A DNA stretch of 64,000 nt from Klebsiella grimontii (lineage in GTDB: Bacteria; Pseudomonadota; Gammaproteobacteria; Enterobacterales; Enterobacteriaceae). Shown here piece by piece: positions 28,416 to 33,099 of this stretch. A program made the translations under genes and the position numbers. The stretch covers positions 558,001-622,000 of the forward strand of contig NZ_FZTC01000015.1 in assembly GCF_900200035.1 (NCBI RefSeq), given 5' to 3'. Numbering within the stretch: the stretch's first letter is position 1; the number at the start of each line of letters is the position of its first letter. Below the pieces are notes generated by a model. The model was not told the DNA's origin and searched no databases. It worked only from the letters and a program-made list of their open reading frames with translations.

Positions 28416-29684
28416 TTATGGCAGCACCATCTCTACCGCCGGAGCGGACTGCCGGTCGATATGCTTGCCGAGCGCCGTCAGCGCAGCCTGGTAAGGGCAC
28501 AGCGTTCCGACGTTGGTGGTCTGGCAGCCCGCCTGACGCCACTCCTGGCGCAGCATCGGATGCTGATTATCCGGCGTTTGCAGGCGGCGTAAATCGTCCA
28601 GACTTTGCGCCTGGAAGTAGACGCGCAGGTAGCGTTTCCCGCTGTGGGTATCGCGCCAGCGCTCGAGGACCAGGCTGCTGCCCGGCGGGATGTTGCCGCG
28701 GCTGTACCCCGGCAGCTGCCAGCTAAAATCCATCAGCGTACGCACCATGGCGATATTGGTATCGTGCGCCACCAGCAGCAGCCAGCGCACGTTCGGCGCG
28801 GCGCCTTCTTGTACCCCTTCCAGCATCGCGTTGAGCAGAATCGAGCCGCGTTTTTGCGCGGTATAAAACACGTCGTTGCTCAGATCGTAGTTTTCCGTCA
28901 GCAGCGGCAGTAGGGCGGTGATCTGGCTGGCGCGGGTAATATGGCCCCACGCCAGCTGGCTGAGGGGCAGGTTTTCGCTCCATCCCAGGCGCAGCGTCTC
29001 GACCATATTGGCCATTACGCTCAGACCGCTAATCGACGTTTTGCCGCTTTTGCTCTGCTCCACCTGCCATGGTAGATCAAACACCGGGCAGGGCTTGTCG
29101 GCTACGCAGACCGCGTTTTTCAGCAGCTGAATGGCCGGGGCCAGCGCCTGCCGACGCTGGGCCAGATCGCCGGCCTTCTTCTTCACTTCCGCCAGCTGGC
29201 GGGCGGGATCGGGTTGCGTGGCGGCAAATTTATCGGTCTGAAACAGCGGGTCGGCGTCGCCGCTGACGTGATGAATCAACACGCCGCAGCCGGGAAATGC
29301 GCCGTCCACCAGCGCCTGGGCGGTGGCCCGCGTGCGCTGCAGGGGGCTGGCACGAACGTAAATCTCCCCGTTCGCCGGACAGCCCGCTGTCAGCAGACCG
29401 AGCTGGCGATAGCGCGCGCCTTCATCGCGCCCTTTATTGACGACGGCGGCATAGCCGTGGCCGGTGAGCTCACCGTCGCGGGTGGTCCACTGCGTCCACG
29501 GGCGCTGGGTCGCGGCTTCGATGGCCTCCCGGTTGCCCTCCGTCGGCGGACGAATGCCGTGGCGGCTGAGTTCAACCACCTTTTCCAGCGCAAACTGCGC
29601 GGCGGCGTGCCCCGGCGCGGCCAGCAGCGGCAGGGCGCAGGCGAGCAGCAGACGTAGCAAAACCTGATGTCGTACAGGCATCAT
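28416..29684 (-). CDS. phyK: Periplasmic histidine acid phosphatase / phytase (PhyK type)
   Basis: A 422-aa histidine acid phosphatase with a signal peptide (about residues 1-28, cleaved near GHAAA). The active-site motif RHGIRPPT is at 41-48 and the proton donor HDTN at 307-310. These motifs are those of AppA/PhyK phytases; Agp glucose-1-phosphatase has a different RH loop. The overall sequence resembles Klebsiella PhyK. It releases phosphate and lower inositol phosphates from phytate. It is the last gene of an operon after the phosphatase and antiporter genes; ATG 29681 is an alternative start. Confidence 0.9.
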   Translation of the reverse strand: MMPVRHQVLLRLLLACALPLLAAPGHAAAQFALEKVVELSRHGIRPPTEGNREAIEAATQRPWTQWTTRDGELTGHGYAAVVNKGRDEGARYRQLGLLTAGCPANGEIYVRASPLQRTRATAQALVDGAFPGCGVLIHHVSGDADPLFQTDKFAATQPDPARQLAEVKKKAGDLAQRRQALAPAIQLLKNAVCVADKPCPVFDLPWQVEQSKSGKTSISGLSVMANMVETLRLGWSENLPLSQLAWGHITRASQITALLPLLTENYDLSNDVFYTAQKRGSILLNAMLEGVQEGAAPNVRWLLLVAHDTNIAMVRTLMDFSWQLPGYSRGNIPPGSSLVLERWRDTHSGKRYLRVYFQAQSLDDLRRLQTPDNQHPMLRQEWRQAGCQTTNVGTLCPYQAALTALGKHIDRQSAPAVEMVLP

Positions 29685-29709
29685 AAAATATTCCTTATCG
29701 GTTAAAGAG

Positions 29710-31071
29710 TTATGATGAGAATGAGGTCTGACGTTCTATCGCGTGTCGCCTGGCGACAATCGCAGCGGTGGTAAAACAGAATAGCGCGGACACGAGGCCG
29801 GTGCCTACCCAAAACAGCGACAGCGTACTGAAGTCATACAGCGTTTTGCCGTTTTCGATCATCGAGGTTTTATCGATGATGATGCCGGTGAGAAACTCGC
29901 CGAGTCCCGCCCCCGCGTAGCTGGCGATACCGATAGTGCCGAGCGCGGCGCCCGCCGCTTTACGCGATGAAATATCGACGGCGATCAATCCGCCGAGGAA
30001 GCAGGTCAACGCCCCGATGGTGGCGCCGAAGATAATCATCGCCAGAATATCGGTGTAGTAGCCGTGCGGCGACCAGAGCATCAGCGCGAAGCCGGCGGTG
30101 TTGAGCAGGCTGATAAAGCCGGCCATCACGCTGCGGTTGCGCGGGAAGAAGCGGTCGGAGAGCATCCCGGCGATAATGGTTCCGGCGATACCGGCGATGG
30201 CGTTGACCCCGATAATCCCGGAAGCCTCGAGGGTAGAATAGGCTTTATCCTGTTCGAGGAAGAAAATTCCCCATGAGTTCACCGCGTAGCGGTCGATATA
30301 CATAAACGCCGAGGCCAGCGCCAGCGTCCACAGGGCCGGGTTGCGCAGCGCCAGCAGCTGGTTCTTAAACACCGAGCCGCGGGCTTCCGTCTCTTCCAGC
30401 GGTTCGTCGCGAATCACGTTGATTGACGGGAAGCCGCAGCTTTGCGGCGAGTCGCGCATAAACAACAGCATCAGCACCACCCCGGCGGCGCCGAGCGCGG
30501 CGGTCGACAGGTAGCCCATTTGCCAGCCGAACCCGGCAATCACCGCCGCGATCACCATATAGGTCATCGCTTCGCCGATGTTATGCGCCGTCGACCAGAT
30601 GGCGTAAAAGGTGCCTCGTTCTTTACAGCCGTACCAGCGCGCCAGCGATACCACGCAGGGGCCGACGCCCATCGACTGCGCCCAGCCGTTGATCCCCCAG
30701 AAGATAGCCAGCAGCATGGCGTTGCTGGTCATCCCCATCATCAGGTTCATCCCGGCGCTCAGCAGCAGCCCGAGACTCATATAGCGCACCACGTTGGCAT
30801 GATCGGCGATAAAGCCGTTGACCAGCTTGCCGATGGCGTAGCTGAAAAACAGTGTTGAGCCGATCATGCCCAGCTCCGTCGGGGTAATGCCGAGCTCCAC
30901 CAGCGCGCTTTTGGCGACGGTGAACGACAGCCGGCAAACGTAGAAGGTGACGTACGCCAGGGTCATGGTAATAAAGGTTTGCCAGCGCACGCTGCGAAAG
31001 CGCTGTTCATCGAACTCTCCGCCCGCTTTGGGCGGCGAAGCGCGAAAAAATGCGATAATTCTTCCAGACAT
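29710..31071 (-). CDS. Organophosphate:phosphate antiporter (OPA family MFS)
   Basis: A 453-aa 12-TM major facilitator of the GlpT/UhpT/PgtP/UhpC family. Family features are TFYVCRLSFTVAKSALVE in TM1 with the conserved Arg, and GWAQSMGVGPCVVSLARWY with GTFYAIWSTAHNIG after it. The family swaps sugar phosphates or glycerol-3-phosphate for inorganic phosphate. Lying 25 bp upstream of a phytase and downstream of an inositol-monophosphatase-like gene, it may import a phytase product such as an inositol monophosphate. That substrate is inferred. Confidence 0.85.
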   Translation of the reverse strand: MSGRIIAFFRASPPKAGGEFDEQRFRSVRWQTFITMTLAYVTFYVCRLSFTVAKSALVELGITPTELGMIGSTLFFSYAIGKLVNGFIADHANVVRYMSLGLLLSAGMNLMMGMTSNAMLLAIFWGINGWAQSMGVGPCVVSLARWYGCKERGTFYAIWSTAHNIGEAMTYMVIAAVIAGFGWQMGYLSTAALGAAGVVLMLLFMRDSPQSCGFPSINVIRDEPLEETEARGSVFKNQLLALRNPALWTLALASAFMYIDRYAVNSWGIFFLEQDKAYSTLEASGIIGVNAIAGIAGTIIAGMLSDRFFPRNRSVMAGFISLLNTAGFALMLWSPHGYYTDILAMIIFGATIGALTCFLGGLIAVDISSRKAAGAALGTIGIASYAGAGLGEFLTGIIIDKTSMIENGKTLYDFSTLSLFWVGTGLVSALFCFTTAAIVARRHAIERQTSFSS

Positions 31072-31178
31072 AATGGTATCTCCGAAGGTCGGAGGCCTGA
31101 CTGATTAGTGTGGTTCGTCCGTGAGGTTTATCGTCGTTGTGTAGAGTACATAATCAGATAAAGCCTGACCCGATACGG

Positions 31179-31988
31179 TTAAGGTAATGGGTGACAAAGC
31201 ATGTTTTTTAATTGTGGGTAGAGCGTCTTGCTGGCCAGCAGCAGCGGGTTGCCGTGACGAATCCCGTCGTTTGTCAGATAGTCATTGCTGAGGCCGCCCG
31301 CTTCGCGCATCAGCACCAGCCCCGGCAGCCCGTCCCACGGGTTCATATGCGGTTCGTAGTAGCCGATAAGCCTGCCCGCCGCCGCCCAGGCGCTCATCAG
31401 CGCCCCGGAGCCGTTGCGGATAAACATCCCGCCGTCGCTCAGCAGCGCATCAAGGAAGGGCAGAAAGAGCGCAGGCGTCACGCGGTGCGAGGTGCCGACG
31501 CCCATCACCCCCTCTTTGACCGTCGCCGCCGGATGCGGCGCGATGGGCGCATCGTTAAGCCATGCGCCCTGGCCTTTCAGGGCGTGGAACAGCTCGCGAT
31601 GGTTGGGGTCGTACACCACGCCGATAACCGGTTCGCCGTCGGCAAGGATGGCCAGCGACAGGCACCAGGTGTGCAGGCCGTTGAGAAAACAGCTGGTGCC
31701 GTCGATGGGATCGACAACCCACAGCACGCGCGCGTCCGGCATCTGCGTCCCGCTCTCCTCGCCGAGAAAACCGTCCTGCGGGAAGGCGTCCATAATGCGC
31801 TGCTTAACAAACGCTTCGACCCGCTTATCGGCGACGCTGACCACGTCCTGCAGGTCGTCGCCTTTATGATCCACCGCCAGCCGGTCGCGCTGTTGATAGT
31901 ATTCGAACGCCAGCTCAGCGCCGGCTTTCGCCAGCTCGCAGGCTAAACGGTAGCGGGCCTGCAGTTCATTTGATTCCAGTGATTTCAT
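31179..31988 (-). CDS. Inositol monophosphatase family enzyme (SuhB-like)
   Basis: A 269-aa (270 if the upstream ATG is used) Mg-dependent phosphatase with the full family signature: GEESG near residue 79, WVVDPIDGTSCFLNG and WDGLPGLVLMREAGG. The family hydrolyses inositol monophosphates, PAP or fructose-1,6-bisphosphate. Its place between a LacI-type operator and an organophosphate antiporter/phytase pair favours inositol phosphate. AGGGAG sits 3-4 bp from ATG 31991 and 6-7 bp from 31988, so I prefer 31988. Confidence 0.88.
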   Translation of the reverse strand: MKSLESNELQARYRLACELAKAGAELAFEYYQQRDRLAVDHKGDDLQDVVSVADKRVEAFVKQRIMDAFPQDGFLGEESGTQMPDARVLWVVDPIDGTSCFLNGLHTWCLSLAILADGEPVIGVVYDPNHRELFHALKGQGAWLNDAPIAPHPAATVKEGVMGVGTSHRVTPALFLPFLDALLSDGGMFIRNGSGALMSAWAAAGRLIGYYEPHMNPWDGLPGLVLMREAGGLSNDYLTNDGIRHGNPLLLASKTLYPQLKNMLCHPLP

Positions 31989-32001
31989 CATAACTCCCTA
32001 T

Positions 32002-32019
32002 TTTGCACACGTGTGCAAA
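32002..32019. promoter_or_regulatory. LacI-family operator upstream of the phytate operon
   Basis: TTTGCACACGTGTGCAAA is a perfect 18-bp palindrome with a central CG, the classic layout of LacI/GalR-type operators. It is 14-31 bp upstream of the first enzyme gene and downstream of the regulator gene. I saw no second copy in the window. Confidence 0.8.
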
Positions 32020-32109
32020 TTACCTGAAAAAAACAGCCCCGAAGGGCAAAATGAGTGTGGATGGATTAAAAAAATTATTCTGTGATCGCTCCGGCATAAA
32101 ATGAATTTT

Positions 32110-33099
32110 TCATTTCGCGCTTTGACGAACGATCAGTTTCACCGGTACTTCACGGTGGCGTGACGGCAGGCTGAATTTGGCGATCCTCGTCACCAGCAGA
32201 TCCACCGCATGGTGGGCGAGCAGGGCGGTATTCTGCTGCACGGTGGTCAGCTGATAGGGCTGCCAGTCCGCCTGCGGGATATCGTCGAAGCCGATAATCG
32301 CGGGCAGCGAAGCCGTGGGATTGTCCGCCCGCAGGCCGTCCAGCGCGCCGAGCGCCAGCATATCGGTGGCGCAGAACAGCGCCTGCAGCCGCGGATGCGC
32401 GGCGAGCAGCTGCCTGGCGGCGGCAAACCCCGCCTGATAGCCGGCGCTGTCGCAGAAGTGCGCGGCAACTTCCGTGCCCTGGGTGTGGGCGACAAACGCT
32501 TCGTAGCGCTGGCGGGTGCTGAAGTTATCCAGGCTTTCGCCGATAAACCCGGCCTGTCGCCACTGGCGCTGGGCAAACAGCTCGGCCACCAGTTTCGCCC
32601 CCTGCGCGTTGTCGCTGCACACGCGGTCGCAGCCGGCCAGCTCGGCGTGGCGGTTGATAAGGGTCACCGGGATTTTTCGCTCCAGATACTCCTCCGCCAG
32701 CGACAGCGGCGGCGCCCCGGAGGTGATAATGACCCCCGCGACGTGATAGCTCAGCAGCTGCCTGAGCGACGGGGCGAGCTGCTGCGGATCGTCGGCGTTC
32801 ATCAGCAGCGGCATAAAACCGTTGAGCGCCAGCTGGTGGACCAGCGGCGACAGCAGCTTGCTGCGGAACGGGTTATCAAACCCGGCGGTGACGATGCCGA
32901 TAAAGTTGCTGCTGCCGGTGTTCATCGTGCGGGCGATGATATTCACCTGATAGCCCAGGGTTTCCGCCGCGGCGAGGACCTTCTGGCGGGTTTTTTCCGC
33001 CACCGATGCGCCGGGCGTAAAGGTACGGGAAACCGCGGAACGGGAGACGCCAGCGAGCCGGGCAACGTCCTCTGCCTTAATCCATTTTTTTTCGCTCAT
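32110..33099 (-). CDS. LacI/GalR-family transcriptional regulator
   Basis: A 329-aa protein with an N-terminal LacI helix-turn-helix (VARLAGVSRSAVSRTFTPG, about residues 10-28) and a periplasmic-binding-protein-like effector domain (FIGIVTAGFDNPF, PLLMNADDP, AIIGFDDIPQADW). I chose ATG 33099 (MSEKKWIKAEDVARLAG) because it places the HTH at the usual position; the frame is open further upstream without family similarity. It is encoded just before the inositol-phosphatase/antiporter/phytase genes on the same strand and probably controls them. Confidence 0.88.
   Translation of the reverse strand: MSEKKWIKAEDVARLAGVSRSAVSRTFTPGASVAEKTRQKVLAAAETLGYQVNIIARTMNTGSSNFIGIVTAGFDNPFRSKLLSPLVHQLALNGFMPLLMNADDPQQLAPSLRQLLSYHVAGVIITSGAPPLSLAEEYLERKIPVTLINRHAELAGCDRVCSDNAQGAKLVAELFAQRQWRQAGFIGESLDNFSTRQRYEAFVAHTQGTEVAAHFCDSAGYQAGFAAARQLLAAHPRLQALFCATDMLALGALDGLRADNPTASLPAIIGFDDIPQADWQPYQLTTVQQNTALLAHHAVDLLVTRIAKFSLPSRHREVPVKLIVRQSAK

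Follow-up and report, generated by a model that had tools for sequence, protein, structure and literature searches.

A conserved phytase operon of Klebsiella grimontii with a predicted inositol phosphate antiporter

Gene content and conservation of the locus

We analysed a window of 64,000 nucleotides from the Klebsiella grimontii genome (contig NZ_FZTC01000015.1, positions 558,001 to 622,000) and examine here a putative operon for phytate utilisation on its minus strand, at positions 33099-28416. The first-pass annotation had recognised at this place a LacI-type regulator, an inositol monophosphatase (IMPase)-like gene, an OPA-family transporter and a PhyK-type phytase on a single strand, and our analysis confirmed all four. 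The first gene (33099-32110, minus strand) codes for a LacI-family regulator of 329 aa with the Pfam LacI and Peripla_BP domains. It is followed by an IMPase-family phosphatase (31991-31179, minus; 270 aa; Pfam Inositol_P, PF00459, 163.9 bits), an OPA/MFS transporter with GlpT as its top solved relative (31071-29710, minus; 453 aa; Pfam MFS_1) and a PhyK-type 3-phytase (29684-28416, minus; 422 aa; Pfam His_Phos_2). The intergenic gaps are 118 bp between regulator and IMPase, 107 bp between IMPase and OPA, and 25 bp between OPA and phytase. Every Pfam domain call on these genes exceeds its own cut-off, and none of the four reached an NCBIfam family at its cut-off in a search with the NCBIfam models.

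To place the locus in its phyletic context, we scanned a species-genome collection with an alignment of the OPA protein and kept the best 80 loci, 20 of which (L003-L022) have an IMPase gene adjoining the OPA gene. The regulator stands in front in 17 of these 20 and is absent from three Pasteurellaceae loci (L017, L019, L020). Among 246 genomes of the window's family, six, the window included, code for the OPA protein at E ≤ 1e-100, and all six possess the regulator, the IMPase and the phytase. Together, the window, the 20 loci from the best 80, five from the family search and L127 of genome G306, a further pair without the regulator, make up 27 IMPase-OPA pairs, which span the Enterobacterales, the Pasteurellaceae and Pseudomonas. 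The four-gene order, whose conservation had been proposed as a check, held: a LacI regulator precedes the IMPase gene in 23 of the 27 pairs, window included, and a histidine acid phosphatase (HAP) comes next in 21 of those 23, directly in 17 and, in four Pseudomonas loci (L015, L016, L018, L021), after a KdgM-type porin (typed in 4/4), with two phytases in each. In two Gallibacterium loci (L017, L019), the IMPase-OPA pair and one MFS gene are followed by a PI-PLC-X-like gene, which scores above the cut-off in L019 and below it in L017; the available stretch of L020 ends after the OPA gene. The block holds together while the flanking genes vary between genera; in the window, mtnA and mtnK flank it at one end, and genes for cytosine deaminase, a PucR-type protein and a cytosine permease at the other. 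The gene order, the operator described below and the changing flanks in relatives show that the four-gene grouping is not due to chance.

Against the Klebsiella 3-phytase structure 2wnh, the window phytase scores 771.8 bits over residues 31-422, whereas no non-PhyK structure exceeds 163.4 bits. It carries the catalytic motifs of the PhyK-type HAPs (RHGIRPP at residue 41 and HDT at residue 307), and its first ~29 residues, judged by eye, form a Sec-like signal peptide. In these respects it resembles PhyK of Klebsiella sp. ASR1 (2wnh, 2wni, 2wu0), which differs in being known as an enzyme; the open-access literature searched yielded nothing that describes its regulator, its operator or the other genes of its operon. 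Identity with Agp was rejected, as Agp is a separate gene (G000:C6); the window phytase reaches neither the Agp nor the AppA NCBIfam cut-off. In another genome of the same genus (G537; L138, 8233-9501), the phyK reading frame is in two pieces.

The phosphatase shares with the SuhB/IMPase family the PF00459 domain and the metal-site motifs EES (78), DPIDGT (94) and WD (219). By eye it has no signal peptide and is presumed to be cytoplasmic. It is, however, distinct from SuhB, a separate gene of the same genome that scores 511.5 bits: the window IMPase is 35% identical to this SuhB (25% to a second paralogue), misses the SuhB NCBIfam equivalog cut-off of 332 bits with 121.5 bits, falls on a separate branch in a quick tree, and features an RxGSGALM segment, seen in the 18 sequences aligned.

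Regulator and operator

The regulator, presumed to be the local repressor of the operon, has helix-turn-helix and ligand-binding domains, and the neighbouring gene is preceded by a palindromic site. This site is a perfect palindrome, TTTGCACACGTGTGCAAA (32002-32019, no strand), which spans -28 to -11 relative to the start of the IMPase gene and is the probable operator. Between it and the regulator gene lies a hairpin, GCCC-TTCG-GGGC (32036-32047, minus), read from the sequence and followed by a T-run (32027-32033), which is probably the terminator of the regulator gene; it was not among the hits of a hairpin scan requiring 5 stem pairs. In 20 of the 23 regulator-bearing loci, the 40 bp upstream of the operator include a run of at least five T.

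The core TGCACACGTGTGCA was found near the IMPase start in all 23 regulator-bearing loci, exactly in 20 and with one change in three (L007, L011, L135). The four IMPase-OPA loci lacking the regulator have no operator, their best matches showing 5 to 7 mismatches. A genome-wide motif search of the window genome, allowing up to 3 mismatches, returned the exact palindrome and a single further site with 3 mismatches. With up to 2 mismatches allowed, an operator match was present in 19 of 20 relative genomes, the exception being the one Gallibacterium genome. Two of the five Pseudomonas loci (L015, L018) feature a second copy, an exact core that follows closely on the OPA gene, where the porin gene is called to start. 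We set aside matches with 2 mismatches that lie by genes of no apparent relation to the operon, found in Yersinia and three further genomes (L177-L180), in Pseudomonas (L184) and, once, in Pantoea (L185). Separately, a GATCAC(A/G)GAATA element occurs upstream of the operator in 9 of the 23 loci (window 32020-32115).

We also considered the global regulators. A CRP consensus has 97 matches as against 132 expected by chance, and hence we make no claim of CRP control. Control by the Pho regulon was rejected because the window contains no match to the Pho-box consensus at up to 3 mismatches. This bears on the possibility that the operon scavenges phosphate, with the phytase yielding inorganic phosphate (Pi), and the transporter and IMPase recovering the last phosphate under phosphorus starvation. 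A Pho-like response has indeed been suggested for growth on phytate in one study (PMC11219571). Nevertheless, the missing Pho box, the LacI-type regulator with its conserved operator and the linkage to myo-inositol catabolism (iol) genes described below all speak against this explanation, as does the exchange typical of the OPA family, which would bring in no net Pi; we regard it as very unlikely.

The transporter subfamily and its link to inositol catabolism

The closest solved relative of the window transporter is the GlpT structure 1pw4 (1.4e-51), and its relation to GlpT, together with the R45, R269 and H165 positions (GlpT numbering), places it in the OPA family. The window genome codes for seven OPA or related MFS paralogues, 24-32% identical to it, four of which pass the NCBIfam cut-offs for GlpT, UhpT, PgtP and UhpC. 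These four share R45, K80, H165 and R269 with the window protein, but are only 27-32% identical to it and lie in a separate clade; identity of the window protein with any of them was rejected, given its 140-219.3 bits against cut-offs of 407.75-750. As a control, we looked within 1.5 kb of each of the seven paralogues and found no match to the IMPase or PhyK.

A careful tree of 48 rows, with 7 near-duplicate rows left out, recovered the 17 IMPase-linked OPA rows as one group (100/99) and 11 rows from iol loci as another (100/99). These two groups, 11 Bacteroidota-type rows and two PgtAB-linked rows split from the five classic rows with 100/100 support. Across the 39 subfamily rows, with the PgtAB-linked pair excluded, R45, K80, H165 and R269 are invariant, L46 and S274 are each present in 38 and S162 in 37. 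At position 299, these rows have A, G, S or T, and the five classic rows uniformly E. We take R45, R269 and H165 to be the phosphate-site arginines and histidine, and K46/D274/E299 to be a salt-bridge triad in GlpT; the full triad is found in GlpT, UhpC and a UhpC-like row, and not in PgtP and UhpT. The window protein differs from GlpT in having L46, S274 and A299, and S in place of N162. On this phylogenetic and residue evidence, the transporter is a member of an OPA subfamily separate from GlpT, UhpT, PgtP and UhpC.

Automated names on two database proteins (P0128, P0133; 'sugar phosphate sensor protein UhpC-like') raise the alternative that the OPA protein is an inositol phosphate sensor rather than a transporter. 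However, the window protein groups apart from the UhpC rows, the typed neighbour genes include no UhpA/UhpB-type partner, and a LacI regulator is adjacent; we regard a sensor role as very unlikely. Some other database proteins (P0125, P0126, P0231) combine IMPase and OPA, or OPA and phytase, domains in one chain, through either fusion or sequencing error.

A class-wide search with the OPA alignment yielded one new genome among 369 (G031), and it was thus that the iol loci came to light. In G031, the OPA and IMPase genes directly follow iolC/J, iolD, iolE, iolB and iolA, all five above their NCBIfam cut-offs. Among 250 genomes of its order, there are nine OPA matches, G031 included, and each of the nine stretches retrieved contains iol genes together with an IMPase. 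Four of these nine iol loci (L199-L202) also feature a two-domain beta-propeller phytase (PF02333) within ~5 kb of the OPA gene and a metallophosphoesterase gene, with an OprO/P-type porin in L200. In a quick tree, the IMPases of the iol loci group with the window type, apart from SuhB (SH-like approximate likelihood ratio test support of 96). Before a search of 398 genomes (threshold 1e-100, all hits 1e-146 or better), we recorded a prediction on this inositol link. That search gave seven matches, four of which had not come up before as OPA loci. Of these four, G373 and G241 have iol operons like the earlier ones and fit, and G258 and G326 fall outside the subfamily, so that the prediction held in two of the four new genomes.

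The iol loci of other orders combine an IMPase with a transporter of this OPA subfamily, while in the window this pair stands apart from iol genes and is joined to a phytase and a LacI regulator; iolD of the window genome is on another contig. More broadly, OPA and IMPase genes occur together in the iol loci L176, L195-L202, L210 and L211 of other Pseudomonadota, some of them with a PhoD phosphatase, a TonB-type receptor or a beta-propeller phytase.

A predicted route from phytate to inositol

The operon most likely serves the substrate-induced use of phytate, and perhaps of other inositol phosphates, as a carbon source. Periplasmic PhyK would strip the equatorial phosphates to give an inositol monophosphate, probably myo-inositol 2-phosphate (Ins(2)P), leaving the axial phosphate in place. 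The OPA protein, a predicted inositol phosphate:Pi antiporter, would bring this monophosphate in against cytoplasmic Pi. The IMPase-family enzyme would then release myo-inositol and Pi, the latter feeding the next exchange and the former entering the iol pathway encoded elsewhere in the genome. The LacI-type protein would repress at the palindrome until released by inositol or an inositol phosphate. This pathway, from phytate through monophosphate import to cytoplasmic dephosphorylation, was put forward in the first-pass annotation and gains support from the conserved order, the operator, the distinct OPA subfamily and the iol loci. That inositol phosphates are the substrate class of the OPA protein in such a pathway is a prediction that we hold with good confidence.

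OPA proteins exchange their substrate for Pi, and such a route would therefore gain carbon and not phosphorus. Since this exchange returns the phosphate freed by the IMPase, and no Pho box is present in the window, the route is most likely carbon-directed, which fits the LacI regulator, iolD and the growth of Klebsiella pneumoniae on phytate. A strain of that species was obtained on medium with phytate as the exclusive carbon and phosphorus source (PMC11219571).

Among the isomers, Ins(2)P is probably the one imported, the import of a monophosphate being best explained by the axial 2-phosphate, and the Klebsiella enzyme presumably ends at this product. For a related phytase, one study records no attack on the axial 2-phosphate and assumes Ins(2)P as the product (PMC9432691), and in Mitsuokella Ins(2)P was observed as an intermediate (PMC7618129). 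Another paper states, however, that PhyK is assumed to complete dephosphorylation (PMC12838507). As for the cytoplasmic step, a plant study gives Ins(2)P cleavage, relative to each enzyme's own Ins(1)P rate, as 0.94% for plant IMP and 17.8% for IMPL1, and describes the IMPL1 group as nearer to prokaryote IMPs (PMC4288329). We tentatively propose, at somewhat less than even chances, a dedicated and phosphate-neutral import of Ins(2)P, in which a new OPA subfamily works with an IMPase branch that removes the axial 2-phosphate, and which evolution has combined with unrelated phytases (histidine acid and beta-propeller), PI-PLC-like enzymes, porins and iol genes.

Several observations weigh against the inositol-phosphate route as a whole. 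The other 60 of the best 80 OPA loci (L023-L082), all from Bacteroidota except one Verrucomicrobia and one Lentisphaerae record, have no open reading frame matching the window IMPase. In the 58 of them with a called OPA gene, a GDPD-cluster gene is near in 51 and a SusD-type gene in 32, where the GDPD (DUF4996) and SusD typing rests on cluster representatives, the GDPD cluster on one tested member. These Bacteroidota-type OPAs carry the residue signature of the subfamily where examined, so that some of its members may transport glycerol phosphate; the substrate of the Bacteroidota type may be glycerol phosphate or an inositol phosphate. Further, L011 (Yersinia artesiana) has no HAP by its OPA gene, in L022 it is an OprD porin that follows instead, and the iol-type OPA of G031 is just 38% identical to that of the window. 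The IMPase gene of G241 lies on the opposite strand, at a distance of ~3 kb. In G258 and G326, the OPA gene is found by PgtA/PgtB-like genes, and neither an IMPase nor iol genes were matched there; these two OPA proteins lack H165 and fall outside the subfamily in the tree, but support for their exclusion is only 84/70.

One alternative is that the OPA protein imports another organophosphate, glycerol phosphate or hexose phosphate, freed by the acid phosphatase, with the IMPase acting as a general sugar-phosphate phosphatase. GlpT is the closest solved structure, Bacteroidota relatives lie near GDPD-type genes, and IMPase-family enzymes are able to accept sugar phosphates (PMC4288329). Even so, the genome already has GlpT, UhpT and PgtP, from which the window OPA differs at several pocket positions, its relatives of another order are in iol loci in 9/9 matching genomes, and phytases of two unrelated families stand beside the subfamily. 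We therefore consider import of another organophosphate unlikely and favour an inositol phosphate.

The four genes are not known to have been described as one uptake-coupled route, and a search of the open-access literature, with most subscription papers outside it, found neither an account of this operon nor any bacterial antiporter for inositol phosphate and Pi. The parts belong to known families; for the transporter subfamily and the coupled route, there appears to be no earlier description in the literature searched. Phytate is the principal form in which plants store phosphorus, and the open-access literature that we found says little on bacterial use of its last, axial phosphate ester. 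If the prediction is true, an importer of inositol phosphate would account for the entry of phytase products into inositol catabolism and provide PhyK with a regulator and a role in physiology; the 'UhpC-like sensor' labels on database proteins would then need correcting. The context of phyK was noted, and E. coli-like regulators proposed, in the Pantoea 3.5.1 paper.

Other importers lie near related genes. In Pantoea (L181, 4120-7501; L182, 485-4036; L183, 1-4492), ATP-binding cassette (ABC) importer genes, coding for an SBP_bac_6-type binding protein and a fused permease, are found beside a second LacI paralogue and operator-like sites, and L183 has a second PhyK (68%). These genes may constitute an alternative inositol-phosphate importer. 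IMPase relatives in L126, L128 and L129 likewise lie beside similar ABC permease and ATPase genes, with a LacI gene in L126 and L129.

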